Below, piece by piece: positions 1,458 to 59,979 of a DNA stretch of 64,000 bases. The notes under the pieces were generated by a model, which was not told the origin of the DNA, did not search any database, and saw nothing but the letters and a program-made list of their open reading frames with translations. Numbering within the stretch: position 1 is the first letter of the stretch; every line of letters starts with the position of its first letter. Position numbers and translations under genes: made by a program. Source of the stretch: Polytrichum commune (lineage: Eukaryota; Streptophyta; Polytrichopsida; Polytrichales; Polytrichaceae); assembly GCA_950295325.1 (NCBI GenBank), contig OX485806.1:19964001-20028000 (forward strand), in the 5' to 3' direction.

Positions 1458-1659
1458 TGCCAACTTAGAATTGCATGACACATGGATGTTTGAAACTTTC
1501 ATCTTCGAGCTCCGGGTTGTTCTCCCAACCGCAGGTACATTTCCACAATGATCCCCAACTCCCTGTTTGTTATCAGATAACACACTACGAAATTGGTTGT
1601 TGAGTAGCAACATTATGGAAGAGAAAGAAGCAAGATAGAGCACATAACGACATCAAACA

Positions 1660-4462: not shown

Positions 4463-4468
4463 TAGCAC

Positions 4469-7400
4469 CTACTCTGGTAGGAGAATTGTGCTTTTTTTCT
4501 TCCTTGCTTTTCTAGGAGTAAGTCTTTTCCCTGGTGAGACATTCCCACTTGTCCGCTTTCTACCATCTGCATTCCCCGAACCTCCACTCCCACCTTCCTC
4601 ACTCACTGGTTTTGCACCCCCCTCACCTGCACTCGCCACTACCTTGCACCCACTTCCTGCATCCTTTCCACAAAAAATTCCCCCTTCCAACCCTAAACCT
4701 GCTTGGGAAGGAGTGGACTCTCCAACTGGTGCAGCTACAATGCCCCCACCTCCTAAACTACTACCCTCAATAAGTCCACCTCCGGGACTACCATGGCCCT
4801 CTATGACACCTCCCTTACTAACATGGCTCTTGCTACCACCCTCTACACTTACACCAACCCCCATCACAGCCTCCCCAGTCACGTTAGCCACATCAATGGC
4901 ATCTTCGGTACTTACCACCTTGTGGCCATTCTTGCCAGGGGTGTCACCCTCACTACCTGCCCTTGAATTCAACATAGGATCTAAACTAGGCATATGAGAG
5001 TTAGTGTTTTGAGCTGTAGGGGTTGTGGGCTCAAATACCGTCCCTTGGTTACCTAGTTTCTCCATCATAATGGAGACCATAGATGTCAGGTTAGTGAGGA
5101 CCAGGGTGTTTTGGTGTAGAGCCTGCTGGTTTGTCTGGGAAGTGTGCAAAACCTCGGATAGATGTTCCTTAAATTCTGCGTGCGTACTTTCTAATGCACT
5201 TATCCGTGTTGCCATCCTTCCAGAGACAGCTTGCTGTGCACATAATAAACATGGCTTTTTATTAGTATGGCAGAGAATATGCGATGTACAAACTAAAGCA
5301 CAAATCAAAAATCCATAACACATGATTAGCTAATTCTTCTCACAAATACAATTGACTACAATGGAACTAAAAAACGATTACAATATAACTGTAATCTATC
5401 TTAACCCTCAACAGAAAAATTACTGAAATATAATTTTAATACGACTACAATATAACTGGACAATGACTCTAATAAATCTGCAATTGTATTACTACATAAC
5501 TATACCATGACTACAACCTGATGTCAAATAATTATTATATACCATGGATCAGACTACATTTAACAAAAAAAAAAACTTACTGATGTACAAGCTCCAGTCT
5601 GCTCGGACTCCTGATAATCCTCTGCAATCTCAGTAATCCCTGGGCTCCTTTGCCTTTTTTTCCGCTGTCAAAGCAAGGCATCTTAGTCAATTACTATAAA
5701 TATGAAATAAAATAAAATAAACTGCATTTACAAGCTATGGAGTTTAGTACGGACTTACCAATTGAGCTTCTTTTCCAGCCTTTCCAGCCCTTCCAACATT
5801 CGATGTGTTCCTCACATTTTTCCTTGCTTTAGCCATCATCTGGGTCTTTTGCTCTGTCTCAGGGTTCGTCCAATACTCACATAACCGTGCCCATTGATCA
5901 GGTTCAATAAAAACAGGGCATTCTTTTTTCCCGGACATGTACCAACCTTTCATTTTAGACCTCTCTATTTTCATCTGTCTTTTCACAGCATTTTTGAAGC
6001 CCAAGTCTGATAGATTATGTTCCAAGTACTCAAATTCATTGTCTATGGCGGACCTAAGCTTCTCTACAGAGCTAGGATGCTGCAACTTCCACTTTAATAT
6101 GCTAACATCCAATATCCTAGGAACCAAGCTGCGGAGCGCCTCATCAAACGCATTTTTACCCTCGCACCCGGCATCTATGCCACCACCCACTTTCACTCTC
6201 AATGTGTGTGGTTTTTGCCCTCCTGATCGCCTCAATTCCACTTTAGTTTCTACCTCCTTCCTAGCAGCTCTCCTTAAGGCTCTTGCTTCACTCTCTGGCC
6301 GTGCCTTACCGATGTTTTGGGTGCCCTGTTCCATAGGTGGTGGCTGAGGAATCCACGGGCCTGGGTATTGTTGTCCCATCATCCACGGCATATGTTGTCC
6401 CATCAGCCAAGGGCCTTGTTGCCCCATCACAACAGGAGGAGGATCCATGACTTGCCCCATTGCTCCAGATGGTCGTTGCATGTGTTGTTGCATCACTCCA
6501 GGTTGCATCCATGGCCATTGAGGCTGGGTGCACGTTGGCGTCGAGGTGTTCACTTGGTGTACTCCAACCTAGACCCATCACACCAATATCAATTAGTAAG
6601 CTAAAATATACAAACCCAGCCTTGAGGTACTCTGCCAATTAAATGGGCAGAAAGATTACAACTTACTTTTTTGGCAGGTGACCTGATTATTTGTCTTCCT
6701 CGAGTCTTCTTTGTTGCACTGGAGCCAGCCAAATCGTCCATGCCCTCATGGACTGACTCGTTGTCCTCATCAGTTTCTGCATTAGTACAAAATATACAGA
6801 GGATTAAGGCCACACCAGGGCACTCGCCATGGCACATCAACCACACTTAACATTGGAAAACAAGAATATTAAATCAAAGCACTAACTCTAACTTCCCAAA
6901 TTTGATTATACAAACCACCCACATTTATGTTTAGGGTATCTCCTAGAAATTAATCCAACAAATTCCAGACCGCAAAGTAAGTGTTGATGTACCATTATGT
7001 GTCGCTAGAAGTCGTGTTGAAGAGAGAAAGAAAAACATAGGGAAGCTTGTGCGTAACGAATCAAGCATAAGTGTGTTTTCAGCCATGTCAGTATACCTGT
7101 GACTAACCTATGACTAAACTTTGAGTGACTATCCAATGACTAACTTTTGAGAAACCTATGTCTAACCCATGTCTAACCAATGACTAACCAATGACTAACC
7201 ATTGACTACCCATACCCACCTATTTGTTAGCCAGTTAACCCCTTGGTTAGGCAGTTCTTAAGTCCCAAATATTTTGTGGCAAACTCTCTTCCTGGGTATG
7301 ACATGAAGCTTATTGAATTCTTAGCAGTTTGTTAAGCCCCATACAAAGCATGGCAAAAACGTCCACATAAATGTCAGGTACTCTGCACATCGCCTCTCCA

Positions 7401-9040
7401 AGATTTCATAAACTATTTCTCTCTATCTAAACTGTTTGTCTGCACAAACTCCTAAACCCCACCCACACAGCAAAACAAATTCTACAATTTATCACAAAGC
7501 TATAAATTATAGCCACTTTGCATGAAACCCAAAGCAAACATCCAGACGTGTACAATGGTTAACTTCCACATATGCCTACCTCCCTAGCATTTCGCCTCCA
7601 TCAGCAAGTTCTTACCTGCATTTTGACACCTGGACTTAACCCTAAACACATACCAAATTTCAAAAATCCCCTCACCCATCACCTTGCACCCAAATCCACT
7701 TACATGCATCTCAACCCTTTTTATGACCCTAAACAAGCAAGTTCACACATTAGTCATATTCCACATCGAAGGCTTTTTAGGAATTAAAAAAACCAGCAAG
7801 CATGAAGACTAATTCAATCTCGGATTACTGTACAGTGGCTAACTTCCACATATGGCTAACTAGAGGAGGAGACTGTACATCTGCACCTTGGCGATGTGTT
7901 TGTAGCCTTAGTTTTTTAAAGCAGAACCAAGAACATCATGCTTGAATCACTTCCATTTCAAGAAATAGACACATAGAAAGTAAATTTGCAAGGCTCCAGT
8001 CTTCTACTACAAAGCACGTAGACCCCCCAATCAGCAGCCCTGCAAAAGTGCATACACTCAAGGGGAGCATCCCAAAACTAGCAAGGACACACTTCACTCA
8101 CTCCCCATTCCCACCCTTGCAAGAAACCCTCTACTTGAAAACCATAGATCCATTCCACTTCAACATCCTAAACCAACAATTACCCTAAACCAACAACAGT
8201 GCATACCCTCAACCCCCCTAACCCCTAGCCAGCAAGATCAGTTTTAAATCTCTCCCCTCATCACCCTTATCACTTACAATGAAACCCTCAAGTTCACTCT
8301 ACAGTCAAGCACACTTCAAGCACAACACTACAAAACCAAGATCCATTCGGATTCAACATCCAAACCCCACAATTACCCTAAACCAGCAAGTGTGCATACC
8401 CTCAACCCCCCTAACCCCAAGCCAGCAAGATCACTTTTGAATCTCTCCCTTCATCACCCTTATCACTTACAATGAAACTCTCAAGTTCACTCTACAGTCA
8501 AGCACACTTCAAGCACAACACTACAAAACCAAGATCCATTCGGATTCAACATCCAAACCCCACAATTACCCTAAACCAGCAAGTGTGCATACCCTCAACC
8601 CCCCTAACCCCAAGCCAACAAGATCACTTTTGAATCTCTCCCCTCATCACCCTTATCACTTACAATGAAACCCTCAAGTTCACTCTACAGTCAAGCACAC
8701 TTCAAACACAACACTACAAAACCAAGATCCATTCGGATTCAACATCCAAACCCCACAATTACCCTACACCAGCAAGTGTGCATACCCTCAACCCCCCTAA
8801 CCCCAAGCCAGCAAGATCACTTTTGAATCTCTCCCCTCATCACCCTTATCACTTACAATGAAACCCTGAACTTCCCTCTACAAAGAGTTTGTTTTAATGC
8901 ATCCACAAACCCACAATTACCCTAAAACACTTACACCATTCACTAGAACACAAGCACACCAATTGTTTGGGGTTAGATGACTTACCTGGAATGTAGTCTT
9001 CCTCTGTCTTAGTCTCAGCTGATTCCTCCTCTACTGCCAT
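4469..9040 (-). CDS. TNPA-like CACTA protein with Transposase_24 domain
   Basis: The exons, chosen by GT-AG sites with matching phase, are 8986-9040 or further upstream (donor CCAG|GTAAGT), 6667-6776, 5759-6568, 5581-5664, and 5233 down to a TAG at 4469. The first exon is acidic (MAVEEESAET...). The 5759-6568 exon starts with a Pro/Gln/Met/Trp-rich stretch and ends in a domain with the Plant transposase Ptta/En/Spm (PF03004) pattern: KGWYMSGKKECPVFIEPDQW, EYW, then KARKNVRNT. The 5233 exon encodes a heptad-like helix (ESTHAEFKEHL...) and a long Gly/Ser-rich tail. TNPA-type proteins bind the subterminal repeats and assist TNP2 in transposition. The start codon is uncertain; the frame is open upstream to about 9505. 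Confidence 0.65.
7091..7215. repeat. Short interspersed TGACTAAC motif array
   Basis: Within about 125 bp the motif (A)TGACTAAC or a one-base variant (TGTCTAACC, GTGACTAT) occurs around ten times, all in one orientation. It lies between the two divergent CACTA genes. Similar TGACTA motifs appear in the outer zones of the element, so this may be an internal set of transposase-binding sites or part of a promoter. Confidence 0.6.
7216..8112. other. CACTA internal spacer, no gene seen
   Basis: This is C- and A-rich non-coding sequence between the divergent transcription units. Short open frames here have no recognisable domain and no supporting splice context. The tandem array begins at its right edge. 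Confidence 0.4.
8113..8880. repeat. 193-bp tandem repeat, about 3.9 copies
   Basis: The phrase GCATACCCTCAACCCCCCTA starts at 8201, 8394, 8587 and 8780, an exact period of 193 bp. Copies 2-4 are nearly identical; the first is more diverged. The repeat lies in the intron between the first exon (ending 8986) and the 6776 exon of the minus-strand TNPA-like gene, close to the centre of the CACTA element. Confidence 0.92.
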
Positions 9041-9698
9041 GTCGTTGTAGGCACGCACTGGAGAGTTCTTCACCACACCTATCCTTGCGCTTCGACGACT
9101 TGGAATGGGATTAGGGTTTGGTGCTTCAACTAGGCGTGGACGAGGGTTTCGGGCACTTTGCAGCTCGCACCTGGCAAGGACCAAGAACTTTGAGTTTCCA
9201 ACGACCCACTTGTTGACAATGCGGCCAGGACATGCACACACTATCCCTCTAAACCATGCATCTACTAGATAAGAAAGAGATAGGGGAAAAACAACGTCGA
9301 GACGAACTGGGCGCTCCCGAAAGTGATAGGGTTCGAAAAGGTCGTGGGTTTCTGGACGCTCCCGAAAGAGAAGGGGAGAGACGAAATCTCCACCGCCCAG
9401 GTAGGATCTTGGAGTAGGTGGCATGCCAACATGGCCAGCCACGTCTTCACACTTAGGTGTGTGCGTTGGCACCATCCATGGAGGTGGCCCGTAAAAACGA
9501 CACAACTATGTCCTAGTCGACCCATGCAAGTCCAGGAGGTGTCAACATGAAAGCAAGTTGAGGAGGAGTCACTTGGATTTTGGCCGACACTAGGCAAGAA
9601 TGGACATAGCATATTGTTGCGAGTAAACGACACAAACCTGCACTCGTTGCTCATCAACTGGGTATCACATTGGAGCTCACATATAGTTATTGGATGAC

Positions 9699-9923
9699 TT
9701 ACAATGCTCTTGCTGCCTCCTCCACTGGCCTGAACATCGCCTGTATTTCGGCGACACGTTTGTCGCGGGCCATCTCATACTCTCCCTTCACTAGGCCGGC
9801 AACAACTTCTACATTCAAGGTATGTAAGCTCTCCACATTTGTTGCAGCACTATTTAAAGCAAGTTTTATAGGCGACCGCACAGAGTCGATGCTGTAGTCA
9901 CATCCCTTTTCTCTACCTGCCAT
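9699..9923 (-). CDS. Possible small exon of a CACTA gene
   Basis: An open frame starts MAGREKGCDYSIDSV and reads a helical, charged sequence (NVEVVAGLVKGEYEMARDKR). It ends exactly at a good splice donor (GCATT|GTAAGT at about 9699). It lies upstream of the TNPA-like gene on the same strand and could be its 5' exon or a short separate gene. No domain is recognised. Confidence 0.3.
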   Translation of the reverse strand: MAGREKGCDYSIDSVRSPIKLALNSAATNVESLHTLNVEVVAGLVKGEYEMARDKRVAEIQAMFRPVEEAARAL

Positions 9924-10643
9924 TTCCTCAGTACACTCAAATTCCCTAGTAAACTACAAAGGTCTCAAACCCACACTTCTTTGATACCTTGGACCTCTAT
10001 TGCTTGAACATCTCTCCTCATGTATTTGACATAGCATTTGGCATTCCCAGTAGACTAAAAAAAGAGTTTAAACAACTACAGCGACATTCATAGCACCCAA
10101 TTGTCACCCATACTTACACACCAAGGTAATGCCCTACTCCACTGCCGTATTGATATGTCTGTATCAGTGTTGGCTACCATGTATGTAACCAGAGTTGGTA
10201 CTGCATTGTTGTAGGTACAGGGTTTAAGATAAACCCGGCAACCCAAAACCCTAGCCCTAACCCCGTACGACTACAGAATCAGTTTATTCTTGTCCACGTC
10301 ATGTAAACAATGACTAAACACCAACTCTAATTAAGGTCAACAATGAGTTGTTAACAACTATAATATTACTCTAACAAATCGTTTGTCAAAGCGACAATAC
10401 ACCCCTAGAAATGACTAATAAACAACTATATACTCTGCAATGATAAATGCGTACACCCTTGCCAAACAACGCATCGTAGAAACTTTTGGAACAATCTGTA
10501 GTCGTATATAAATCCATTTATACTTCAGTTAGGCAGGTAGCCATATGGGTCATAGTTAATTTGGTCAACTGCACACACTATATAGCATGCAAAACTATTT
10601 AGGTGTGTAATTGCTAATAGAAATAATCTATATGATTGCTGTC
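9924..10643. other. Spacer between divergent CACTA genes
   Basis: This 720-bp AT-rich stretch has no supported coding sequence. TGACTAA and AACAACTAT motifs similar to those in the subterminal zones recur between 10,300 and 10,440. It probably holds the promoter of the TNP2 gene. Confidence 0.4.
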
Positions 10644-13600
10644 GGCATGGAGGAGAGGAAACTCCCCATTAGCGATAAGAGGAGGCAATAATTGCGAGAT
10701 GATGGGCTTTGGAAAAGAGAGCAACAAAGGGTTGTATTCTACAATTTGAGGAGAATTCACTGTCCATGCGGCAAGTGTAAAGGCCGTGTTCAGTGCTCAT
10801 TGGGAAAAAGTCAAGGACCACCTAATCCAACATGGGAGGGAACCCTTATATAGAATATGGAGAGGGCCAGGTGACAGAGACTCGTCCGATGAGGAGTGGG
10901 AACAAGAATTCCAGACACCTCGTAGAACATTTGAAAATGCAAAAATGGATGCAGGATTTGAAGTGCGTTCAATGGTGGAAGATGCATTTCAAGAAATAGA
11001 CGAGCAACAACACCCATTGGAAGAAACAATACAGGAAATTGTCATGGATGCATTCAATGTAGTGGATGGCCTACAAGAGGATGCAAATGATGATTCGGGT
11101 GATGAAGATGATGAAGAACCTATGGGGGATTTGGGCATTGAGGAAGACAATTATGATGCCCCACATGATTTAGAGGATGCAATCCAAGAATTGTATGGTG
11201 GAGCAAAGTCATCCGTATTGGCCGCCACAATTTTGATCATGACCCTTTGTACTATTCATGGGGTGAGCAACAAGTTCGCCGATCAACTATTTGCTCTTTT
11301 CCGCCTACACCTTCTTCCTGGTGAGAACCGACTACCTAAGAATTACCATGCCGCAAAGTCAATGATTAGAAAGTTGGGCTTAAATTACCACACCATCCAC
11401 GCATGTATAGGAGGGTGTGTGTTGTTTAGAGGGCCTTATGAAAAAGCTGTCCGTTGTCCTAAGTGCAACAAAGCACGGTACAAAGACGAGGCCACCCAAA
11501 AACGACCTTGGAAAGTACTTAGACATTTTCCATTGATTCCTAGATTAAAACGTATGTTTCGAACACCGGCAATATCCGAGCTTATGGTATGGCATTCAAA
11601 AAATAGAAGCACAGACGGTATGGTAAGACATCCATGTGACTCCAAGGCATGGAACCATGTGCATGAAAATGTTGATCCTACATTTGGCCAAGAACCTCGA
11701 AATGTGCATATGGGACTTGCTACAGATGGTGTGAATCCCTTCAAGCTTCAACGCTCCACATGGTCTACTTGGCCAGTGATGTTGCTTAATTACAACATCC
11801 CTCTGTGGTTGACAACCAAGAATTTTTTTTGTCATGTTGGTATTGCTTATACCCGGAAAACAGTCCGTTACTTCTCAGTTTTTTGACGTGTATTTGGCAC
11901 CATTAGTAGAAGAATTGCAACAGTTATGGAAAGGGGTGTTAGCATATGATGTCATGAAAGAGGTAGGGAGTCGAACTTTCAAATTAAGAGCAATGTTATT
12001 ATGGACAATACACGATTTTCCAGGGTATGGGACAGTAGCAGGCGTCGCACACCAAGGGTATGTTGCGTGCCCGGTGTGTGGACCAGATTTTTGGGGTGAA
12101 CATTCTCTTGAGCTTGGGAAACAAACATATACGGATACACGAAGATGGCTTCCACATGATGACCCATGGAGATTGCCAAGAATGAAGGATCATTTTAACG
12201 GCCGCATGGAAGAACGAGGACCTCCCAAAGTTGTCACGGGAGACGAGCAAGCAGAGCGGGGAGTTCAATACCAAGACTGGCTAGGAAATGGGAACAAGGA
12301 TGGTAGTGATGGAGATCCCTCAAAAATTCATGGAGTGAAGAGACGAAGCATACTACATGATTTGCCGTATTGGAAGGTAAATACTTTTACATTCTCATTT
12401 CCAAATTCGGGGACAGTAGACCATGGTAGTTATTTGATGCAAGAAAAATAGCACTTTAATGTCAAGCCTCAAATCGTAGTACATGTGCATTTGATTTTTG
12501 CCCCTTATTTTCATGGTTTAGGCTTCTAAACGTTTGTTATACTGTTTTTGAGTCAGGACCTTCTTATTCGATACACATTGGACATTATGCATTGTGAACA
12601 AAATCTATCGAAAATCATATTGAAGACAATTACAGGGCATAAGGATACAGTGAAAGTAAGGCGTGATCTTCAACGGCGGGGAATTAGGAAACACCTTTGG
12701 CTAACTAGTAATCCCAAAAAACAAGGGAAAATGTTAAAACCTGTAGCGCCATATGTGTTTACTAGCGAGGAGTTCGATATATTTGCTAGCACTATTGAAT
12801 CTTTGAAAACACCTTCAGGCCACATAGCCAACATATCTCAATACATACGGAAGAAGAATTTTGGGGGACTAAAGTCACATGATTACCATGTACTTATGCA
12901 ACAAATATTGCCATTAGGATTAAGGGGTTTATTACAACCCGGCCCAAGAATGGCAGTGATGAGGATTTCCAAGGTATTTCGTAGAATATGTAACAAAGTG
13001 TGGAATCCAAGTGATTTTGAGGGACTTCGTGTTGACGTTGCGCGGAGTATGGCACTCTTAGAGATGCATTTTCCTCCCTCTTTTTTTGATATAATGACTC
13101 ACTTGGTGTATCACCTAGTGGAGGAATTGGATTTGTGTGGACTTGTATCTACAAGGTGGATGTACCCTATTGAAAGGTACATGAAAACCTTAAAGCACTA
13201 TGTCTGCAATATGGCAAGACCCGAGGCTTCTATGGCGGAGGGGTATGTGAAGGATGAGTGTTTTGGTTTCATTACAGAGTACTTGCAACGGTTTGAGGTT
13301 GTCGACCGACGAGTTTGGGATGCCGATGAAGAATACGGAGATGCTGAGGAGGTTCTTGAGGGGGCGGGAGCAGGTTATGTCATGAGTCCTCCTTTGAGAG
13401 AACTTGCTCATCAATATGTTTTGACAAACATATCTCTTTTGGAACCTTGGCATCGGTGAGTATCTACAATATAGTCACTCTGTAGTTATATGTTATAGTT
13501 ATATGTTAGTGGATAGTAGTTGTCTATGACTATATATTCATAACCATACAAGTAGATGCTCAATGACTGTTATATGACTAGGATATGACACCTTAATGAT

Positions 13601-14383
13601 AAACATGTGATTCATATACTAATATAACTATGTTGTGTCAGGCAGTGGAGGGAAGAACATGATGCAAATCCCAGCATCCCACCATTTGATGTTTGGGTTA
13701 GAAGAGCAGTGCACAACCATCCTCATGATTCCTCCAATAGTGACGACATGGACAGAATTTTGTTGTGTAGCAGGCCATCCCAAAAAGCCACACGGTATAC
13801 GAGGATGCGCGCATTTGGGAACCATTTTCGAGTGCAAGATTCACAATCCGCATTGTTGCAAACATACGATAGTGGGATTGCCTCAATATTTGAAATGCCA
13901 GCTGTTGATTCAGAATCTAAGGTGTCATTAAATTATGTGGGAGTGCTTCAAGATATATTGAAGTTGGATTATGGTCCATTGCGGACTCCAGTAATTCTTT
14001 TTCGATGCGAGTGGTTGAAAAGAGAAGACAATCGTGGAAATCCAACTTATGTGCGGGATGATGCAGGGTTTATGGTGGTGAACTTTCGGCACAAACTACC
14101 CAAGATGTCGGAGCCATTTATTTTTCCAAGTCAAGCTACACAGGTTTTTTTCTCCGATGATGTTAAAAAACCAGGTTGGAAGGTAGTTTTGCGAAAGGAG
14201 GCACGGTCAAGAAGAGAAGAACAAGACACATCAGATGTTTTTATTACAACACGTTTAGAAGTTGATGGCATGAGTCCTCTTGAGCGTGTGCCTCCCCCCC
14301 CCCCCATTACAGTCTCTCTAGTAGGGGCAATCGAATTATCAGACAAGGATAATATGTTGGCAATAGCAAAGTTTAAAAATTGA
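10644..14383 (+). pseudogene. TNP2-type CACTA transposase with frameshifts
   Basis: The exons are 10644-12376 (donor AAG|GTAAAT), 12557-13455 (acceptor GTCAG, donor G|GTGAGT) and 13642-14383. An N-terminal transposase-associated zinc motif (HCPCGKCKG) is followed by an acidic region. The TNP2 core comes next (CVLFRGPYEKAVRCPKCNKA, LATDGVNPF, LLWTIHDFPGYG, ACPVCG, then LDIMHCEQN across the first splice). A DUF4218 region (MALLEMHFPPSFFDIM, RWMYPIERYMKTLK) and a DUF4216 region (LFRCEWLKRE ... FIFPSQATQVFF) follow. Breaks: an in-frame TAA soon after the first ATG (about 10,690), a +1 shift at about 10,780 between GKCKG and VFSAHW, and a one-base surplus in the T8 run at 11,823-11,830. The rest is open, so decay looks recent, or some breaks are sequencing errors. 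This gene would supply the catalytic transposase. Confidence 0.88.
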
Positions 14384-15769
14384 CAAAAATTTAGATAGGC
14401 TACAGTTTCTGTATTGTTTTTCTCATATGGATGAGTATTACCCATAAACCCAAATATGGGAGCAAACTCATGTAAAGGGGACTATCATGTTCAAATGTAA
14501 GTTGTGAGCGAAAGGTCACCACGGTGTGAGTAGGCTTAGATTTGAAACCCCTGGAAATGGACTTACAGTTTTCAATAGCCGTATATGACTACACAATGAG
14601 TCAAGTCCGTCCAAACAATTACTTTATTGCAACTACAATGACCATAAACCCTATCATTGCTTACGTGGCAGGACACACCCAATTGAAGAAGCACTCATTA
14701 ATGACTAACTCTGAAATTCATGTAGGATAGCATATTAGTATGCCATTGTTATAATGTCCAATATGTTGACGTGGCAAGGTTTAGGGTTTATTAAACACCT
14801 CCTTTCAGAAAAGAAAAAGAAATCTCTTGACAAATGTTGTATGGACATTTATAAATGAGCTACCAAGAGTACAGAATCTACCAGTATAAATCTTCACGTC
14901 CAAATGTAAACCACTGTAGATTGTGCCACTATAGTCTCCATGAAATACAATAAGAGATACTCACTTTAAACATCTAAACCCTAAATTTATGCCGTACTTG
15001 GTTTGTAAACCCTAAACCCTAATCAATGATGGGAACCATAAATTAGGGAGTGTATATGTGAATTTCTAATAGCACGTTCACAACCTTAGTTTAGCATGCT
15101 GCATAAGGTACATGCGATTTGGATGTATTTTAAATTGCATAGTAGGAAGGCCCGAACACATAATAAAAGAATTGTACAAAAGTTATCATACTAAATGATG
15201 ACTTGTTGCAGTGTGTTCCAAATTAGATGCCCCATATAAAAGAATAACATGAAAATGTATGCTCGACGACTAATATAGGGTATAGGGAATAGGGGGTCTA
15301 TGCCACGTCAATTACCTTAAAACTTCAAAAGTCGTTGAGGTAGTCATACTAGTCATTTTTATGACACGTCATTACTACCGACAATGTTGAGAAATATCCC
15401 TAAAACTTCATTTCCACGTCATTTAATATGCACAAATGCCACGCCATATACATTCTATTAAAGAGTCATATTGAAGACGTCATAGTGAAATGACAATAAA
15501 ATAATGACTTAAACAACCCCACGTCATCATCCTCTATCCCCGTCATCCAAGAGTGGATGAAGTGGATGATATATTGTGCACAGAAAATATGGATGATGTG
15601 AGGTCTTCAATAGAGCTCATCGATGAGAATTTTAAATGACTGCAAAATGACAAACGAGTTGGACACGTCATGACTTGTAAGTTAGGTAGGTGCAGTAGTC
15701 ATTTAGATAGTTGTTTAGGACAATGAGTCATTGATACCATGGTTGGAATGGACAAGGTTTCTTCTAGTG
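14384..15769. repeat. CACTA right subterminal region and terminal inverted repeat end
   Basis: No gene is seen. ACGTCAT, AGTCAT, ATGACT and CCACGTCA motifs are dense, especially at 15,300-15,740, in both orientations. On the minus strand the region starts CACTAGAAGAAACCTT at 15,769, the terminal repeat. The three bases next to it (ACA, 15,770-15,772) would be the target duplication if the left end, outside the window, is also flanked by ACA. Three AAACCCTAA-like motifs near 14,990-15,020 are isolated. Confidence 0.7.
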
Positions 15770-15789: not shown

Positions 15790-17910
15790 AATTTGATATG
15801 TTCTTGTAAACCCAAGTGAGTTGTTGATTTGATTGAATTCAAATGTAGTAAACAAGGTTTTACTGTGGAGCTTCCAAGGTAACACATAACAACCATGCTC
15901 CAATGTCCACTGTCAAGAAGAGAACATAGTTAGTAGCATTTTTGTAAATTAAAATTTCAGTAAGTTTTCAAATAAGATTCTATAAAACATAGATTGAATA
16001 CCTGAGTAAGATAGGCAAAAAAATGTAGTCACACTTGAAGATATTGATGTCCTTGAACCACAATGCAATTTTCTTGAATCCATTTGCAACATCCTCCTTA
16101 AAGGTGATCACAAGCTTCTTGAAAAAGAAGCTATTAAAAAAATAGAGTCCTTTTATATAGTGATGTTTTCTTTCCTGGTACTTAAGATAAAAATCCACCA
16201 TTGTGTCTGTTAGGCATTGACCCTTGGTGAGAGACTCAAAATCAGTGGTCCTAATTGTCACTGGATTGAGGTCATCACGTGGCCAAACAAGTGAATCTTG
16301 AACCACTCTCTGCGCCTCATTTGGCATGTCAATGGGATCCTCGTCAAACGTATCATCTTCGTGAAGCACCTCTTGGATAATATGATTAATCATTTCTTCA
16401 ACATTCTCATGCAACATCTCTTCATCCAAAACCTTTTGCAACTCTTCATCTTCTTCTTTCACATGTGTAAGCAAAGGCAAAGTGGTTAAGTGAGGTAGAA
16501 TTGGCCCATAGTATTTATCCATTGCAGTTGGATCCACTGGAAAGATGCCTATTTTTCAACAAACCCCAACTCCCATGATCAGTAAGTCAAATATAACAAA
16601 ATAGCCATGTACATCTTTGAATAAAAAGATGATTAAAATTTCAAGCAAAAAATTTAGCACATATTTAAAGAAAAAGTTGAATAAATACATGTTGTCTTGA
16701 AACCTGATATTATATTAGATGGCTTAAGAGCTTTGCTTAAAGCATTTGCTGCCATTTTAGCCAAGGTTGATTTCAACATTACTCCATTGCCCCAATTTGG
16801 ATTTTCTAATGTCATAGTTGCTTTATCCTCTTGAAGATATTGCTTAAAAGGCTTGAAGCAAGAGACATCAAGGGGTTGCATGTGGTGTGAGGAATGTGAA
16901 GGGATTGTAATGATGTCTAATCCCATCTTGATGCATGTATCCAATGCCTTGGCACTAACATGGCTACAATGGCCATCTAAGACAAGAAGGTGTTTGTTAT
17001 CGTTACTCACACCTCCCGGAACATTGAGTCGAAAGTGGTTAAGCCAGTCACAAAAAATCTCATTAGTTACCCATCCATTTTCTTGGACATTCATTGCCGC
17101 ACTTGGTCCACAATGTTGTATATAATCCTGAAGAAGATAGGTTCCCTTGAAGATGAAATAGTGAGGGACGAAAGTGCCAATAGCACTAATACATACCAGG
17201 ATAGTTAACCATTCCCTGCTATCACATGCACGAACATTCACATTCCTTGATCCTTTTTTTGCCACAACCTTTAGAGTATTGTTTCTACCCACTGCTTGCA
17301 CCCCTGTTTCATCAACGTTCCAAATATGGGATGCTTCGTATCCCTGAGAGGTAATCAGAGTGGTCAAATTGTCATAAAACCGTGAACATGAGACTTTGTT
17401 TAAGCCAATACACCTCTTCATCTCCAAACCTTCGCCTACTCGCAACACCACCTCTGGATGTCGTAACTTGAAGCATTGCCACCATGTTTGTCCGGGATGG
17501 TCATCTTTGAATGGATGTTTTCTTGGATGGGATCTTACAATATCTTTGACAGTGTTTTTTTAAATTGGTAAGGTCACGGAGAATGCCATTTCTTGCATCT
17601 TAAAGCGCCATGCTTTCAACTCACACTCTTCTGCCTTGGTTAAATAGGGATCAAAGCCACGTCTCTTCTTCTTGGTCTTTCCATACATCCAATCTGCAAT
17701 TGATGATGCAGGGATTGAGAAAAATTTGGAAGCATTCCTAATTGATCTTTCTCCTGATTTGATGCTGTTTATGGCAATTTTCATCAACTCTTCTGTCCAT
17801 TGTCCTCGGCTAGGTCCACATGCATTGGTTTTTTTCCCCACACTAGGTCTTGAATATTCAGCTTTAGGCTTAGGAGCTTCAACTCGTTGAGACCCTCGGG
17901 GGCCTCTCAT
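15790..17910 (-). pseudogene. pogo/Tigger-type DDE transposase fused to a Ulp1-type protease domain, truncated by CACTA insertion
   Basis: Exon 1 (16689-17910, ATG at 17910) encodes an HTH_psq domain (residues about 37-85, WTEELMKIAINSIKSG to KKKRRGFDPY) and a DDE_1 domain. Its acidic triad is D200 (WNVDETG), D312 (LLVLDGHCSH) and D348 (MQPLDVSCF), 35 residues apart for the last pair. An in-frame TAA at 17560-17562 is the only break. A donor at T|GTATTT (16689) and an acceptor at ATAG|GC (16548) restore the Tigger C-terminus, KTTCIFPVDPTAMDK. The same exon (16002-16548) then runs through an acidic linker into a Ulp1/C48 fold: TKGQCLTDTMVDFYLKY, then FFNSFFFKKL. Exon 3 (15790-15909) gives GHWSMVVMCYLGSS, with the catalytic His, then LLHLNSIK, where the catalytic Asp is Asn. 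The Gln/Cys part is missing because the CACTA element begins 20 bases into the next intron. Confidence 0.82.
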
Positions 17911-18756
17911 AGTAAAGAAGATCTCACTCAAAAGTACCTCCAACGGCACGAGATCTACCTGCAAACCCTGGCAACCACTTAATGATCATCCTCCAAATTG
18001 AACTCCTAGCTCCAATTCATAACTAATACCGCCACCTCAACACAGATAGAAAATAATATACTCCATTTCGTCGTATGGAATTCTTCTGCCATTTGCGTTG
18101 CCTGTAAGCTCATTGTATAACGCAGCTTTCGACATTGCTGAGAGCAATAGTCTAGCTCAATCTCCCTGGAAGGCGGTGTGTGCAGAGAGGGCATACCTTC
18201 CTCTCACTTTCAATCCTCACTGCACATCATTGATCTTCTTGTACCATCCTCTAAACATCACCTAACCTTCAGGTCTCGAAGTCTTTCAAGATTTCTTCGT
18301 TGGCTCAACTAAGAGCATTCAGAGTTGCGTAGCCCTGCACGCATCTTTTCCGCCTTAATCTTTTCCCAGTTGTTGTGTCAGAGCCGAAATTTGAAGGACT
18401 TTCTACACCATATTGAGTTTCATGTGATCATAGCTGTGTGCATTGTGTGTGTATTTCCGAAGCTCAGACAACACGCAAGTTTGGCAGTAGTTCTACACTA
18501 TAAATTAAATTAAATTTCAAATAAATAAATAAATAAATAAAATCTGATATCAGCATTTGAGAAGCAAGTTCAAGGAGGAGATGGTAAGAGAACATAAAAG
18601 AATTTTGCGTGATTTAGGCTCTTACCACGAGAAGTAAATTCCGGTTTGTGTAGCAATCTTCCTGCAGACTTGAACTTCAACCGGTTATTTCTCAAACTCC
18701 ACCGGTTCATCTGTAACTAACTGCCGGCTCTCCCCGATCATTGATGAGACTAAGCG
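17911..18756. other. Upstream region of the Tigger-Ulp1 element, no gene seen
   Basis: The stretch upstream of the transposase ATG has no recognisable domain in any frame. It includes an (AAAT)n run near 18,520. It may contain the promoter and the undetected terminal repeat of the Tigger-type element. Confidence 0.4.
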
Positions 18757-19370: not shown

Positions 19371-21032
19371 AACCCAGCCCGAAAGCGCATAACTACTGCA
19401 AATTCTTGACGGAGTTCGGAAGGAGCTGAATGCGGGCAAGAATCCAAAGCATTGAAAAAGCAATAAAAACTGCAAAGCTCTAAACTGACATTTGAGAAGA
19501 GGCTTGAAAGCAGCTGCGACGTTGAAGAACATTGCTACATCTTCATCAAATTGCTACATCTACACCTTGCTATGTGATTTGAGTGAAGGAGACTCGATGA
19601 TGAGTGTGAGTTGACAGTGACGCTTTAGGTCATTGGCGCGGTCATGATTGAGTTTGAGAGACATCGGACGGTTGAGATTGCATGTGATATAATTTGACGG
19701 CCGAGATTAAAAGTACACAGTAAGTGGCATGGTGGAGTATCGTGACATGCACAGTAAGTGGTGCTGCACAGTCAGTAGCATGTCTACTGATATATTTGAT
19801 TAATTATCCTTTCATTCACATTGCTTGGCAAGTTTATCCCTTCTTGACTCCCATATGCTTTGATTGTAGGAACGCCAATGCTCGGACATCATAATGATGT
19901 GCACACAATTAATTTAACCCCAAACAAATATCCCCACACTTTCCTGTACGTTCCCCCACCTTGAACAAAAGTGATGCTTGTTGGTAGATTTGTATACATA
20001 GCACCACAAACCCTAAACAATGATTCAAGAACAAGCAAGCATTGGTACTACGTCACTCGTTATTTTAAATAAGCAATGCTGTAGTGCTCCATACATATAC
20101 GGTAGCCCCGATTCCGAACGTATTGATAAACCAAAACCCCAAATTTGCTAAGTATGTCATGGCATTCAAGGCACAAGAATTCTAAGAAACTCCAAAAACG
20201 GGAAAAGAATTGGAATAACACACATATAATTTCAAATTGTTTGTTATCAGAGGGTTTATCTTTCTGTGTTGGACCAAGGTTTGTAGATAGAATGACATGC
20301 GTGCTAACATGCCTATTGAGTGTTCTGATTCTGTTTTGACCACATTTTAGAAGTTTAACTTATTATCCTATGTCATGACATGCACCATGGTCAGCCCATC
20401 AACCGCTTGTACAAGAAGAAATGCTTGTGACATAATTGACTTTATCGTTGATGAGATGAAAGCAAATGAAGATGCTCTAGCTATGAATACACTCGAGTGT
20501 GCCATAAATCCCCAGCCTGGATGAGAGACGCAAAGACTGTGTTGTCAGCTCCTATGCTGTCCTCATGCTCACACACCCTTTCCATAGTGTGCACATGAGA
20601 ATGTAAATATTCTAGCTAGCTTTGGCCTCCAAGATTTGGGGTACTGAGGTAAGTATAGCCGAGGCATGTAGAAATGGAACCTGGAAGTCTGGTGTCTATT
20701 TAAACATCAGTGCAGTGTCTGGGCGTACATACACAAAACCAATGTGAGAGTCATCAGCTAATGTGATGAGTTCACACTCCAACAACGACGACGACGATGA
20801 CGACGATGACGACGACAACCAGTGCAACTAAAAACTCACGCAGAGGAAATTCATTCAATGAGCAGACAACGGTGCACTTGCGAAGGACATGACATGGTGA
20901 CGATAGGAAGATGGCATTGTTCATACAAAGTGGATACACAATACAATGGCAGAACTCACGCACTCCTGTACAACATCATCATGGAGCTGCTGCTGGAGCT
21001 CCTCAGAAAAGAGGAGAATTATTGACTGATAT
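19371..21032. other. Intergenic region downstream of CP26, no gene seen
   Basis: No coding domain is recognised. CACAGTAAGTGG-type phrases repeat three times at 19,720-19,780, and a GAC/GAT trinucleotide tract lies at 20,785-20,818. The right end must contain the 3' untranslated region of the CP26 gene, which is transcribed leftwards from 24.8 kb. Confidence 0.5.
20785..20818. repeat. GAC/GAT trinucleotide microsatellite
   Basis: An uninterrupted run of GAC and GAT triplets lies about 215 bp beyond the CP26 stop codon, probably in or near the 3' untranslated region. Confidence 0.9.
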
Positions 21033-24000
21033 CTACAGGCTTGGGGCACGCTCGGCGGTTCCCTGCAACACTGTGAGCAAGTTGTTGCCGAATGGGTCGC
21101 TCAAGTAAGCAGACAGGTTCTCTACAGGTCCCTCTCCAGTCACATAGGCCTGGATGAAGAATCCAAGCATGGAGAACATGGCAAGTCTTCCATTCTTGAT
21201 CTCCTTCACCTTCAACAATGCAAACTGGTCGTGGTCCTTGGCCAAACCCAGAGGGTCAAAAGCACCACCTAGGTGCAGTCTGTCCAAGTCCTGCAGGCCC
21301 AGAAAACAGATCATCCACACTCAGGTTTGGCAACTACTACAGAGCTCTTCACATTCTTCAGGCATTATAGCCTTGCCGTGCACACAGTTTTATTTATGTT
21401 TTGCACTCAGAGAATTGATTTAAATGGTATGACAATGAATGGTGTAGAAACATACCGATCCCAAGGGGGACTTGTTGGTTGACATGTAGTACTCAGCTCC
21501 TCCAACCAAAACAACCTCGGCGATCACAGCAGCTGCCAGGTTCACTGGGATAGTGGCTCCAAAGTACTGCAGACACAGGGGGATCACACCCTCTTACATT
21601 TTGTAACCACGTGCGATAATGGGGTATTTAATGGGGGGGTATTTATGCACCTCTCGGTATTTTTTTCCTCCCTATTTGTAGATATAAAGTTGTTTTGACA
21701 TATTTTTAAGCACCCTATGTTTATTTGTAATTTTTGGAGAGACTAATTTTTAGCATCATTTTTTTAATAAATTGTACAGATACCAAATAATGAACAGAAT
21801 ACTATAGCATTGCAAAATCGACTATGTGAGCAACAAACATTCCATACCATCCATCTTGTCATTTGATCGGTTAGTTATACCAATGCTAAAGCATTCAAAG
21901 TGCCATTCAAAACACAATCAATAATACTTGGAGTTTAGTTAAAAAATTACCAATGAACATGGAGATGACAAAATGTACAAGCTAACATAGACAAGTTGTA
22001 AGCACGGATAGAACAAAACAAGAAATATAATCGATTGTCATAAGACATGAAAATTTTGCATAATTATCTACTCCAAAACAAAAGATTGCATTCAATTGAA
22101 AAAACTAAATACAAAAATTGAAAACATTTACTTTAATTGTGTTCACAAACACATTCAACCTTGTACCAAACATTTACAATATAAAGGGTTAGGATATAAC
22201 TATGCACCCTCCAATACATGTCAAGGTACATATCAATATCCTCTTCAATGTCATAAAAAGATAAAAATTTTGGAGAGATTTAACACCATAGATGACAAAG
22301 AACTAAAACTAATTGTTGGTATGAGGCGGACATACCTCACGAGAGCGGAGCAAGCCGAATTTTTGGCGCTTGTGAAACACAATGTGTGAATGTTGTGACT
22401 GCTATGGAGCAACGAAGAAAGCTCCAAAAAATGTGTCTTACCTACCGCCTTTGTCCCACGCTTCACCAATGCAAGACCTCCTACCCAAACGCTTCACCAC
22501 CTTCACACCACTATGTTTGTCCAAACCCTAAGCAAACCCAAGGGCCGTTGAGAAGTCACAACATTCCTTCCCCCAAAAAAATCTACAACGTTTCCCTCCA
22601 AACTAATGTGTTTCATTCAAATTTGGACAAATTACACAATTCTTCATCCAAGTAGTCAAACCCATAATTATTCTATTACTTCTACTACATACATTTGGGG
22701 GGATCCAATATCTATAATCCTATTTTTTTCTACTCATTACTAAAATGGAGGAATTATTCACCGCCTTATTTTACATATAAACATGTAGGGGACATATTTC
22801 CAAAGCTATGGTAGATCTAATGAATGTATAAATTATACCCTCAACGAATTAAATTGACCTTATTTTTTATCTCACGTGGTTTCTAAAATTCCGATAGTCA
22901 CCTCCCCGTGACTGCAGACTATCTCCTTCCAGCAGAAGTGCTCCAGTCTGAGACAGACAGACAAAAAGACCAAGGATCATCAATTTTAGTCATTGAAGAC
23001 ATTCAACCAGACCCAAAGCACCCCTTTGAAAAATGTGCAACAACACAGAGCACAAGAGAGTCTCTTTCATGTCCACCAGGGTACACTACAGTAGGTAGGC
23101 AGTCCTTAACAAACAATGCCCTTGAATGATTTCCAACATGTAGGTACATATTCAACTCTAGAATGTGCGTACACAGCACTTTAAAAATTCAAAAGCTATT
23201 CATCTCGACTCCAGAGCCAACAAGTTCAACTCCCATGTCCTTATTTAAATCTAATATGCCGTCCAACATATATGACCAATCTTCAACAGCAGATACTCTC
23301 ATTTTACGTCATGTGCAGAAGTCCACAGCACGGAGGTCACAAAAATCTCTCTTCCTATCCACAAAGGTGCAACCCACAATTCCCAAATGTATGCAAATCC
23401 AAAGTAACGGTGGAAATCATGTGCTACAACATTATTCCTGGAAGCAGGAGTTTATTACATACCTTCCACCAAACGGCTTCTGGGCCGCAGACGGCGCCGA
23501 ACTTGTTGAATGCCTCAGGAAGCACGAATCCAACGGCACCGAGCATAGCCCACCGAGCATGGATAAACTCATAGGCTTGGTACCTGTCGAAGTCTTGTGG
23601 CTTCTTGCTCAAACCAAAGGGGTCGAAGCCGTAACTGCAGACCAGAATATATAAACCACATGACCCATGAATACCCAATGCACACTGTGAACCAATTGAA
23701 CACTCCAAAAAGAAAGGGAGCCTTAAGATACAGCACCCCGGATGTCTTAATTTATGTGAAAACAGATAGAAAATCAACACCTAATGCACATCATGAACCA
23801 ATAGAACTCTTAAAAAAGAAAGAAGGCCTTAAGATACACCACACCGATGTTGAACGGATGTCAAAACAGAAAGAAAAGAAAATTGCACTTACTCTCCGGG
23901 AACTTCTCCGTTCAGGTAAGATGGGATCTCAGACTTGTCAAGAAGACCTTCGGGAAGATAGATTCTCCTGTCAGGTCCTGCAATCCCAAAAACCACTAGA

Positions 24001-24768
24001 TCATATCCCCAATCGCATGACCCAAGTTTGGAGGAACAAATTACCACAACAGCCATACATGCAAATGTGGATAATGATTGAGAATGCCCAAAAACCGCCA
24101 AATCACATCCCCATTCGCATGAGCCCATGTTTTAAGCAAACACATTAACACAACACTCATACATACAAATGTGGCTAATATTCGACAATGCCAAAAATCG
24201 CCCAATCACATCCCCAATCGTCATGACCCCAAGTTTGGGCGAACAAACTAACACAACAACAAAACATACAACCATTGATAATGTTTAAGAGTGCCAGAAT
24301 AACCGCCAAATCGTATCCCCAATCCCCATGAGCCCAGTTTGAGCGAATAAACTAACACAACAGCAAGACATGCAAATGAGGGTAAATGTTTGAGAATGCC
24401 ATCTAGCCCACAACAGCCCAATTCTCCAACATCGAACGAATTAGGCAACATAATTATAATTGAGAAATTTGAGAAGGAGAAATGGAGGGAGTCTATCAAT
24501 GCAGGTAGATAGATAGATACGTACCGTACCACTTGGCGAGCTCCTCGTTGTCGGGCTTGCTGACCTTGGAGGCGGCCCTGGAGGCGGACTTCTGGACGGT
24601 CTTGGCGGCCTTCTTGACGGGGCCGGCAGCGGCGGCGGCCTTCTTCTTGCCGAAGTTGAAGATGGAGACTACCTTGAGGGAGGCCGCAGGGCGGGCGGCA
24701 TTGCTCACGGAGGGGGCCGCGGCAGTGCTCAGGCTCTGGCCCAGAAACTCTGCCCTCATGGTTGCCAT
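21033..24768 (-). CDS. Lhcb5: Chlorophyll a/b-binding protein CP26 (photosystem II minor antenna)
   Basis: Six exons (24525-24768, 23893-23977, 23463-23634, 22912-22947, 21456-21566, 21033-21290) total 906 nt and encode 301 aa in frame. Residues 1 to about 60 form a Ser/Ala/Lys-rich chloroplast transit peptide. The mature protein starts near [16 protein letters not shown], a CP26 signature. Helix B is at about 126-145 ([12 protein letters not shown], with E132 and R137), helix C at about 187-206 ([14 protein letters not shown]) and helix A at about 240-262 ([17 protein letters not shown]). The C-terminus [16 protein letters not shown] is also typical of Lhcb5. The protein binds chlorophyll and xanthophyll and links trimeric LHCII to the photosystem II core in the thylakoid membrane. 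All splice sites are GT-AG except after exon 4, where CTGCAG is followed by TCACGG. Intron 1 contains a 104-bp tandem repeat, and a MITE lies about 290 bp upstream of the ATG. Confidence 0.95.
23982..24400. repeat. About 104-bp tandem repeat in CP26 intron 1, four copies
   Basis: The phrase AATGCCCAAAAACCGCCAAA, with variants, begins near 23,982, 24,083, 24,187 and 24,290, followed each time by ATCCCCAATCGCATGA-type sequence. The array fills most of the intron and starts almost at the exon 2 acceptor. Confidence 0.85.
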
Positions 24769-24953
24769 CCCTCCCTCCCTCCCTCCCTCGCTCGCTAGCT
24801 CGCAAGCAACGCAAGCAACCTCATGTTCGTGCTCTCGCTCTCGCTCTTGTCCTCGTCCTCGCCGGAGCTATGGAGCTCTGTTTGTGCGCGAGCTGTGCAG
24901 TGTAGCTTCCTCCCTGGTGGGGCGTGTGGCAAGGGCGATGAGTGGGAGGTTTT

Positions 24954-24961: not shown

Positions 24962-25058
24962 CTAGCATGGGATGGATTTAGAGAGAGAGAGAGAGAGGGG
25001 GGGGGGGCAAAAAATGAGTAAATAATAAATAACATGTTCGCAGCTACACTAATAATAA

Positions 25059-25552
25059 GGGCCACTTCACACACGAGCCAAGAGCCGTGACCATGAAATT
25101 GTGAGAGCCCAAAAGAAAGTGACCAAAGGCTGTCCCAACACACCTCCAAAGTCATGTAGTGTGGTCACAGACCCTCAAGAGTATTGTGAAGCCATATGTG
25201 ATCGGGCCCCCAACCAAATGCTATTTCAATGAATTTTTATTCATGTAGGTCCTCACGCATGATAAAGTAGAATAAATCAACGGTTGGAAGCATTCAGAGT
25301 GCCATGGTCTCCCGGTTTTGTGTCAGGCCTACCTCCAAGAGGTGGTTTTTGAAAATAATCCAAGTGACCATGAAACATGATCCATTTGATGCCGTGTAGG
25401 AATCCATGTGGACTTTACATCCATCTTGCATTCACATACTCCGTTGGTCCCTCAAGCGTAGTGTGAAGCGAACTTGGCTCTACCTTTTCCACCAGTGAGA
25501 GTGTGTGGCGTGTAATGGTCACGGGCTCTCAGTCTCATGTGTGAAGTGACCC
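25059..25552. mobile_element. 0.5-kb PIF/Harbinger-like MITE, copy A (CP26 upstream)
   Basis: The ends are inverted repeats: GGGCCACTTCACACACGAG on the left and the reverse complement of a close variant on the right (CTCATGTGTGAAGTGACCC). The element is flanked by TAA on both sides, a 3-bp duplication of the TWA type used by PIF/Harbinger elements. The interior is about 85-90 percent similar by eye to copies at 33,523 and 59,482. It is 494 bp long with no coding capacity. Confidence 0.85.
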
Positions 25553-26947
25553 TAATGCCCCCTTCCCACCTGACTTTACCAAATAACCAAACTAATTTCT
25601 AAAAATCAGGTAAAGCTCCCTCGGTTATAGCAGAGGCATCCAGTTATCCCAGTGCACCTACAAGAACTTGCTCGAGAGATTTTCAAGTAGGTTTTAGTTA
25701 ATTGGCTTTCACACATGTTCATTGTTTTATCTACGAAGCAATGAATGTTGGGTAGTTTTTGTCCCATCCCCAAATGCCTTACTACTCACCTATCTTACCA
25801 TCGGTTTTTGTTAATGGAGCTCCTCGTGCCCTCATAGCTAAGACTAAAAAGCAACCGATCACAAGGGCGGGAGGCGACACTTTTAAAGGTCGTATATTCT
25901 TGCCTCATGTTTAGGTACCGATGGGAGGGTCAGTGCTTGAGGCTTAAAACCCCCACTTTTAAGCCATGCCACATCATTTGCCAACTAGGTTGGGCACTAG
26001 ATAATGTGAATGGTGTGAAGGCCGGGTTGTTAGAACCAACTTCTAGGCTTAGCTCAACTCGGGTGGGAAGGGGCCATAAGTAGTCCGATTAGTGTGGGTG
26101 GAGAATTAGTGTGGAAATAATTAGCATGGACCACATTCATTTTCTATCCCAAGTAAAATTACCATGGGTCTATGATCCCGGGTCTTCTCTTAAGTTTGCA
26201 TGAGGGTTTTCAACCAACACTTTCCATGAACTAGAATAGGCACTTGACATCAAAAGCAAAAGTGGCACAAAAATAAATAATCACCCACATTGATTTCTTG
26301 GAAAGAAAAACAAGTATTATAGCCCATGCCTATCCCCCTTTGCATCTTTTGTGAAAGTGGAGGGGAAAGTGGGACGAGAACTACTATAGCATACATGCTG
26401 ACCAAATGATGAATATAACAACTATTGGAAATTTGAGCATAAACTGAAATATTGTAGTCAAATGGGGGCTTTAAATGAAGTACAAAACAAAGGATGTGCA
26501 CCAACATCAAGGTCGTCACTATACCGCTCCTCACCATTATTCACCGTTCATGGTATCTTCACGAAGCTTTTGCACCTCAATAGATATTTGAGAGTTGCAT
26601 CTCATCAAGAGCATATCATGTGATAGTTGTTAACTTTCCACCAATTTGTGATATATGTAAAACTTTTCGTCAAGTTTCTTAACGAAACATTTTTTCTTTT
26701 CTTATTATGATGAAATTCCCATTATGTTTTACTTCTAAATTTATTAAGGATGGACTATTAGTGTCTTCTTTTGGTATTTTGAACCATATGAATGTGTATT
26801 TTTTATAGTGACTCCCAAACTCCCTTTAATAGATATTTTCCAAGAAGTCCTTGGGTTGTTATCTTATAACACATTTTTTTTAAATGCTTACTAAGAAGAT
26901 CAAAATATTTGTTAGTGGTAGATAAGGCCCCTGCGACAGGAGGGGGG
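25553..26947. other. Intergenic region, no gene seen
   Basis: This AT-rich sequence lies between the MITE and the gypsy LTR. Short open frames lack recognisable domains. The phrase TTGGGTTGTTATCTTATAACACA near 26,850 has a relative near 45,712 (dispersed repeat). Confidence 0.5.
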
Positions 26948-59481: not shown

Positions 59482-59979
59482 GGGCCACTTCACACATGAG
59501 CCAAGAGCCGTGACCATGAAATTGTGAGAGCCCAAAGAAAGTGTCCAAAGGCCGTCCCACGACACCTTCAAAATCATGTAGTGTGGTCACGGATCCTCAA
59601 GTGTAGTGTGAAGTCATATGTGACCAGGCCCTCAACCAAATGTATTTCAATGACTTTCTATTCATGCGGGGTCCTCACACATGATAAAATAGAGTAAATC
59701 AACGGTTGTGAGCATTCGGAATGCCATGGTCTCCCGGTTTTATGTTAGGCCTACGTCCAATAGATGGTCTTTAGAAATAGTCCAAGTGACCATGGAACAT
59801 AATCCATTCGATGCCACGTAGGAATCCGTGTAGACTTTACATCCATCTTGCGTTCACATACTCCGTTGGTCCCTCAAGCAGAGTGTGAAGCAAAGTTGGA
59901 CCGGTTCCACCTTTCCCACCAATGAGAGTGCGTGAAGTGTAACGGTCACGGGCTCTCAGTCTCGTGTGTGAAGTGGCCC
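59482..59979. mobile_element. 0.5-kb PIF/Harbinger-like MITE, copy C
   Basis: It has the same orientation as copy A. It begins GGGCCACTTCACACATGAG, ends CTCGTGTGTGAAGTGGCCC, and has TAA on both sides. It is 498 bp, close to copy A throughout. Confidence 0.9.

Follow-up and report, generated by a model that had tools for sequence, protein, structure and literature searches.

A dead pogo-superfamily transposon copy in Polytrichum commune whose transposase gene probably captured a ULP2-type SUMO-protease region

Results

Organization of the fusion gene in the window

The window, a stretch of 64,000 nucleotides of Polytrichum commune DNA, carries on its minus strand a gene that begins with an ATG at position 17910 and joins a pogo-type transposase to a Ulp1-type (C48) protease domain. 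It is interrupted by a CACTA element and preceded by a terminal inverted repeat (TIR) and, farther upstream, by the host CP26 (Lhcb5) gene, a mark of a green plant (Table 1). Splice sites were called from GT-AG borders, reading frame, and conservation. The phase-1 splice between exons 1 and 2 yields ...IISGFKTT-C-IFPVDPTAMDKYYGP..., in which IFPVDPTAMDKYYGP is the transposase C-terminus completed by exon 2; the frame then remains open through an acidic linker into the C48 domain. An earlier, sequence-only reading had placed a transposase–Ulp1 fusion on this strand, at 15790–17910, with a junction of 16,689 to 16,548, and these assignments proved exact. The DDE residues that it had named, D200, D312, and D348, are all present, with the same numbering in the window copy and in a second copy, C1, and the last two lie 35 residues apart (DD35D). 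The in-frame join is likewise borne out by the open exon 2 and by the joined protein, which matches both DDE_1 (2.3e-22) and Peptidase_C48 (1.7e-10, profile positions 2–103 of 217) in Pfam.

Table 1 Features of the window, in window coordinates
Feature	Position	Strand	Remarks
CACTA element (16,087 bp), right part	1–15769	+	Inserted in the intron after exon 3; left end outside the window, C4:19963683
ORF in CACTA interior, NLI-interacting-factor-like phosphatase domain	3834–4511	-	2.5e-10
ORF in CACTA interior, Transposase_24	5744–6568	-	Weak match
Exon 3, GHWSMVV (catalytic His) and HLNS	15790–15909	-	Ends at GTAAGT donor
Intron 2	15910–16001	-	GT-AG
Exon 2, transposase C-terminus, acidic linker, N-terminal C48 part	16002–16548	-	C48-like from about 16297
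Intron 1	16549–16688	-	GT-AG, phase 1
Exon 1, putative HTH region and DD35D transposase	16689–17910	-	DDE_1 2.3e-22; in-frame stop within
DDE_1 domain, residues 233–404	16699–17214	-	Pfam
In-frame TAA, codon 117	17560–17562	-	Inside transposase
HTH_psq-like stretch, residues 39–72	17695–17796	-	17.0 bits, below the Pfam cut-off of 20.4
Short repeat	18655–18743		Rejected as terminal repeat
5' TIR of pogo element	19765–19790	-	TCAGTAGACATGCTACTGACTGTGCA, TA before it; matched in C1 and C2
Host CP26 (Lhcb5) gene	about 21000–24870	-	
Repeat array in first intron region of CP26	23985–24399		100-bp spacing
Dispersed repeat, ~500 bp	25054–25555, 33514–34021, 59477–59982		Also at L031:640–1130

Among solved structures, the best match of the joined protein is SENP7 (3.2e-14), and the transposase part matches none at E 0.1. 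An AlphaFold model of exon 2 alone was uninformative (mean pLDDT 39.6), tRNA and Rfam scans of the window gave no matches, and a scan of viral contigs with the transposase exon found no relative. The copies of the ~500-bp dispersed repeat, three of them in the window and one in a separately fetched stretch (L031), are 85–87% identical.

Stop codons and a later CACTA insertion in the window copy

The window copy is dead: it cannot make the fusion as it stands because of the in-frame TAA at codon 117. A second in-frame stop lies in exon 4, in the stretch left of the window (L033). No Cys box (DCG) is found on the minus strand of window positions 1–26000, because 20 bp after the exon-3 donor the gene gives way to the end of the CACTA element; the gene's Cys-box exon (VPQQPKDNVTDCGIYVIKSVEIF) lies at L033:8351, ~650 bp left of window base 1. 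The CACTA ends, ACA followed by CACTAGAAGAA at C4:19963683 (in L033) and TAGTG followed by ACA at 15769, define an element of 16,087 bp with a 3-bp ACA target duplication. On the plus strand of the window it has tnp2, DUF4218, and DUF4216 stretches, and the motif ATGAC is dense at 15.0–16.0 kb and in bases 1–750, which hold the five densest overlapping 500-base stretches. The paralogous copy C2 has an empty site with a single ACA, so that the duplication and the empty site together show that the CACTA arrived later than the fusion gene. Homology between the window copy and C2 breaks off at L033:8245, and for this reason the last exons and 3' end of the window copy were not found; this 3' loss adds to the damage done by the stops and the CACTA.

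On the strand opposite tnp2, the CACTA interior contains two further ORFs, one with a phosphatase-like domain and one with a weak transposase match (Table 1), which perhaps represent another captured host gene.

Five loci share the fusion, one of them fully open

The search covered one genome (G000; 408 Mb in 64 contigs), which contains 51 Pfam C48 matches. Used as a query, the exon 2–3 protein matched 20 stretches. In five loci the match starts at query residue 1–4, hence in the transposase C-terminus, and extends into the linker or Ulp1: the window copy itself, C2 (94%), C1 (78%), C4b at C4:17.04 Mb (47%, with stops), and a copy at C6:30.75 Mb (C6; 50%). The remaining stretches belong to later exons of these five loci or match other Ulp1-like genes in part. 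The transposase C-terminus is joined to Ulp1 in 5/5 loci, rather than the two parts always being separate genes, and because this joining exon is common to all five, the comparison identifies the fusion as a trait of an element family, not the product of chance or of one decayed locus.

C1 consists of seven exons with GT-AG borders that encode 849 amino acids without a stop, in the order putative HTH region, DD35D transposase, C48 domain (His and Cys both present), and pogo tail. Pfam matches are strong for DDE_1 (3.9e-23, 82.4 bits; cut-off 22) and Peptidase_C48 (1.5e-20, 74.4 bits; cut-off 20.7; profile 2–190 of 217). The HTH matches fall in the right order, with HTH_Tnp_Tc5 (3.3e-4, 21.0 bits) and HTH_psq (2.9e-3, 17.7 bits) each under the curated cut-off (22.2 and 20.4, respectively). 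No Mutator domain was found in C1 by Pfam at E 1 or better, with DDE_1 in its stead. The best solved structure is again SENP7 (1.6e-20), and its second aligned stretch spans the Cys box. The combination that the sequence-only reading had proposed to look for in other copies (one frame for both domains, a shared terminal repeat, and an intact Cys box) is thus present in C1. It is the only fully open copy of the five: C2 has frame breaks in the transposase and a Tyr in place of the catalytic His, stops interrupt C4b, and C6 combines frame breaks with a deletion spanning the His.

As a separate observation, C1 and C2 share 96% identity from upstream to the end of the transposase exon and only 75% from exon 2 on, with the break at intron 1 and dS values of 0.17 (5' half) versus 0.69 (from exon 2 on). 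This pattern suggests that the 5' half may have been exchanged or converted between the C1 and C2 subfamilies.

Element ends, TA flanks, and a related MITE family

C1 (5,497 bp, 55227698–55233194, with 25-bp inverted repeats) and C2 (6,054 bp, 39128272–39134325) are bounded by inverted repeats T[C/T]GTAGACA[T/G]GCTACT[A/C/G]ACCGTGCA with TA before each, and in both copies these ends enclose the tail exon as well as the Ulp1 exons. The 5' end of the window copy is at 19790, and the 3' end of C4b is similar to the C1 and C2 ends, so that the TIR with its TA target duplication is seen at both ends of C1 and C2, at the window 5' end, and at the C4b 3' end. No TIR was found at the 3' side of the window copy or in 10 kb around C6. 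The DDE_1-type domain, the DDxD triad in its DD35D form, and the TIR with TA are features of the pogo superfamily. The assignment is made at this level, and the Tigger family named by the sequence-only reading is a candidate within it.

The stretch at 18655–18743 was considered as a terminal repeat and rejected, given that it matches dispersed repeats and has the wrong orientation. This short repeat also occurs in the fetched loci L031, L037, and L034, and as a 105-bp tandem array at C4:17.02 Mb.

With up to three mismatches allowed, the TIR pattern occurs at 122 + 131 places in the genome (reversed control, 0 + 0). Among 100 of these 253 places that were listed, 84 form 42 facing pairs, namely 41 of 577–756 bp (28 of them at 640–642 bp) and C1 itself. 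The short pairs represent a MITE family of ~642 bp that has its ends in common with the fusion element. TA lies on both sides of all 20 MITEs fetched from the 41, and these are 93.0–99.2% identical to their own consensus. One MITE, L041, was compared with the elements; it corresponds to a C2-type element that lacks its middle. Both parts are 96% identical to C2, and the 3' part includes about 170 bp of the last coding exon. The makeup of L041, the TA flanks, and the identity among MITEs indicate that the mobile unit extended past the Ulp1 region and that the short copies spread recently. The fusion protein may have moved these MITEs.

Origin and position of the Ulp1 domain

The C48 domain of the element resembles SENP7/ULP2, and the same genome has a ULP2-type gene (L034, C5:11.15 Mb) with HLDS and DCG. 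By eye, four introns in the Ulp1 part of the element have the same place and phase as L034 introns. Two are in phase 2, one lying a full codon ahead of HW and the other following H-I-K/R; two are in phase 0, one preceding VPQQ and the other following a 40-amino-acid Cys-box exon. Two further L034 introns are missing from the element. The four shared places and phases point to capture of the Ulp1 region as genomic DNA.

With the transposase as query, 137 stretches of the genome matched (134 of 282 candidates scored), with identities of 64–100% for the fusion loci and 49% for the next relative. In the stretches fetched for three transposase relatives (49%, 49%, and 47%), nothing matched Ulp1 at E 1 or better (3/3). 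A tail HMM was built from eight Ulp1-less relatives, nine having been fetched and one (L062) dropped for having no ORF above 100 amino acids; the relative at C5:46435256 was left out. The tails were cut around an LTS-like motif picked by eye, and for five of the eight the fetched sequence comprised the post-transposase part only. This HMM matches the fusion protein at 734–819 with 24.1 bits, against 10.6 bits for the best of 2,000 shuffles. In single-sequence searches, the C1 tail scored above 40 shuffles (best 10.2 bits) in only 4/8 relatives: L060 (21.6 bits), L059 (17.5 bits), L067 (16.5 bits), and L066 (11.5 bits). Because of the Ulp1-less relatives and the tail HMM match, the Ulp1 domain appears to have been inserted between the DDE domain and an ancestral pogo tail. 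The Ulp1 domain of the sequence-only reading therefore stands as a C48 domain, refined here to a ULP2/SENP7-like domain that is internal and precedes the pogo tail.

Two other places in the genome combine related sequences. Several ULP2-like matches lie on the same strand at C5:50.11–50.46 Mb, possibly as a gene cluster, and a pogo transposase at C2:30055408 (+) has, no more than 3 kb away and on the other strand, a C48 match at C2:30059205 (-).

Selection on the Ulp1 domain

Nei–Gojobori codon comparisons were made, with bootstraps on uncorrected proportions (pN/pS). In between-subfamily pairs, the Ulp1 domain has a pN/pS of 0.21 for the window copy and C1 (0.14–0.31), 0.21 for C2 and C1, 0.30 for the window copy and C4b, and 0.29 for C1 and C4b; against C6, whose domain is damaged by a deletion, it is 0.54 (window copy) and 0.49 (C1). 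The HTH–DDE part gives 0.20 (0.12–0.31) for the window copy and C1 and 0.19–0.35 over the between-subfamily pairs, those with C4b comprising only 53 codons. Values are 0.42–0.75 for the linker and 0.38–0.47 (three pairs) for the part after the Ulp1 domain. Within a subfamily, the window copy and C2 give 0.88 for the transposase, 0.68 for the linker, and 0.71 for Ulp1, and the Ulp1 interval of 0.58–0.79 stays below 1. Since the two parts have similar pN/pS between subfamilies, the Ulp1 domain is under purifying selection about as strong as that on the transposase. This reading of constraint would fail had each subfamily captured Ulp1 anew, and the shared exon and linker speak against that.

Discussion

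Catalytic residues and possible roles of the captured domain

We consider it probable that the window holds a dead copy of a plant pogo-superfamily transposon whose transposase gene captured, together with its introns, the catalytic region of a SUMO protease gene of ULP2 type (SENP6/7-like), to give a protein with the order putative HTH, DD35D transposase, acidic linker, C48 domain, and pogo C-terminal tail. The HTH region would bind the inverted repeats, the DDE domain would cut and paste both the element and the MITEs, and the C48 domain might strip SUMO from the transposase, from nearby SUMO-marked chromatin, or from repair proteins. Such removal could relieve a SUMO-dependent inhibition or help repair. 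The sequence-only reading had proposed that the fusion might shield the transposase against sumoylation or direct it to SUMO-marked chromatin. A SUMO-removing role of the C48 domain is proposed by analogy; in the Sleeping Beauty work, extra SUMO1 lowered HMGXB4-stimulated transposition, and the sumoylated protein described there is HMGXB4, not the transposase (PMC10138897).

The weakest step is that the C48 domain still cleaves SUMO, given the residue at its acidic catalytic position. That position is Asn in 5/5 copies and Asp in SENP7 and in the host ULP2-type gene (HLDS), and an Asp-to-Asn change by decay of the window copy alone was rejected, since all copies have it. The Cys is kept in 5/5 copies and the His in three (window copy, C1, and C4b), with Tyr in C2 and no His in C6. 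C1 has the His and Cys with Asn for Asp, rather than the full His-Asp-Cys triad. Papain has an Asn at the position corresponding to the catalytic Asp, so the replacement need not abolish activity. Protease activity of the fusion is possible, and it is uncertain because of the Asn in all five copies. The fuller reading, in which a ULP2-type catalytic region with its introns was set between the DDE domain and the tail, and SUMO removal by the transposase itself, perhaps with a papain-like Cys-His-Asn arrangement, was selected in transposition with the MITEs drawing on it too, we judge to be evenly poised.

A somewhat unlikely alternative is that the C48 domain is no longer a protease and that SUMO binding, with Asn for Asp, makes it a tether between the transposase and SUMO-marked chromatin or repair foci. 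The uniform Asn, set against the HLDS of the host gene, would fit such a tether, whereas the invariant Cys, the His of three copies, and the papain precedent argue for a domain that may still cleave.

It is improbable that the Ulp1 region is an idle passenger or a chance juxtaposition, with a working transposase that stops within intron 1. Reading on from exon 1 into that intron does soon meet a stop (SGFKTTCIYSTFSLNMC), a stop is also present there in C1, and many captured fragments in plant transposons are described as inert (PMC13317346, PMC2528002). However, the short form would be without the transposase C-terminus and the pogo tail, and between-subfamily pN/pS is 0.21–0.30 for Ulp1, against 0.42–0.75 for the linker. 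Domestication of the fusion as a host gene that is no longer a mobile element is more doubtful still: purifying selection on the protein and the single fully open copy would be in keeping with it, but C1 and C2 carry inverted repeats with TA flanks at both ends in different chromosomal places, and about 250 matching ends occur in the genome, mostly MITEs among those listed. That the Ulp1 gene is a passenger of the neighboring CACTA, as in known CACTA-ULP elements (PMC2528002), and merely abuts a transposase fragment has next to no probability and is refuted at this locus, despite a CACTA end only 20 bp away, because none of the Ulp1 exons falls between the CACTA ends, the later arrival of the CACTA is shown by its ACA duplication and by the empty site of C2, and C1 and C2 have Ulp1 without a CACTA.

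Comparison with known transposons and proteases

The pogo–Ulp1 fusion has a close parallel in Ginger1 of Hydra, in which a DDE transposase and Ulp1 also share one polypeptide inside TIRs; Ginger1 has a Gypsy-integrase-like transposase, an animal host, and a C-terminal Ulp1, whereas the fusion element has a pogo transposase, a plant host, and a ULP2-like domain followed by a pogo tail (PMC2836005). The authors of the Ginger1 study suggested a part in transposition or repair for Ulp1 and OTU domains borne by transposases (PMC2836005). CACTA-ULP elements of grapevine and rice are, like the fusion element, plant cut-and-paste elements with a ULP region, and several rice CACTA proteins reportedly have both Tnp2 and ULP1 domains; they differ in their Tnp2 transposase and 3-bp target duplication, in place of DDE_1 and TA (PMC2528002). 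Kaonashi and other ULP-carrying Mutator-like elements likewise keep a captured ULP in a plant DNA transposon, as a separate gene or fused to VANC and often in reverse to mudrA, unlike the domain within the pogo transposase (PMC13317346, PMC2528002). The sequence-only reading had likewise named Mutator-like and some CACTA elements as carriers of Ulp1 genes.

The DDxD transposase of the fusion, with its putative HTH region, resembles that of the pogo superfamily at large, in which Tigger is DD29-36D and Lemi DD29-42D, with the fusion element at DD35D with TA flanks; the land-plant members described come from eudicots and Selaginella (PMC7386202, PMC7325037). The word Ulp1 does not occur in the main text of these two surveys. 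Among the literature matches listed, a scope outside which subscription journals, preprints, and Repbase reports fall, there is no pogo transposase with Ulp1; the transposon matches listed for pogo and Ulp1 are Ginger, Crypton, and Utopia. The sequence-only reading had known of no Ulp1-bearing pogo or Tigger transposase, and this holds for the literature matches listed, with the qualification that Ulp1 in the same protein as a transposase is known from Ginger1 and CACTA. Crypton elements encode C48 peptidases (PMC3212892). Because Ginger1, Mutator, CACTA, and Crypton elements have all taken up Ulp1-type proteases (PMC2836005, PMC2528002, PMC3212892), the Ulp1 built into a pogo transposase is apparently an independent case in a recurring pattern, one in which gene capture seems to have ended in a selected, fused domain. 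The system lends itself to experiment: one copy is open, the ends are defined, the MITEs could serve as substrates, and a single Cys could be replaced.

The fusion domain shares the C48 fold region, the His, and the Cys box with SENP6/7–ULP2 proteases (3eay, 7r2e), and the sequence near these features is similar. It differs from them in the Asn at the catalytic Asp position and in being joined to a transposase, and the long insertion that SENP7 has between His and Asp is absent from it.
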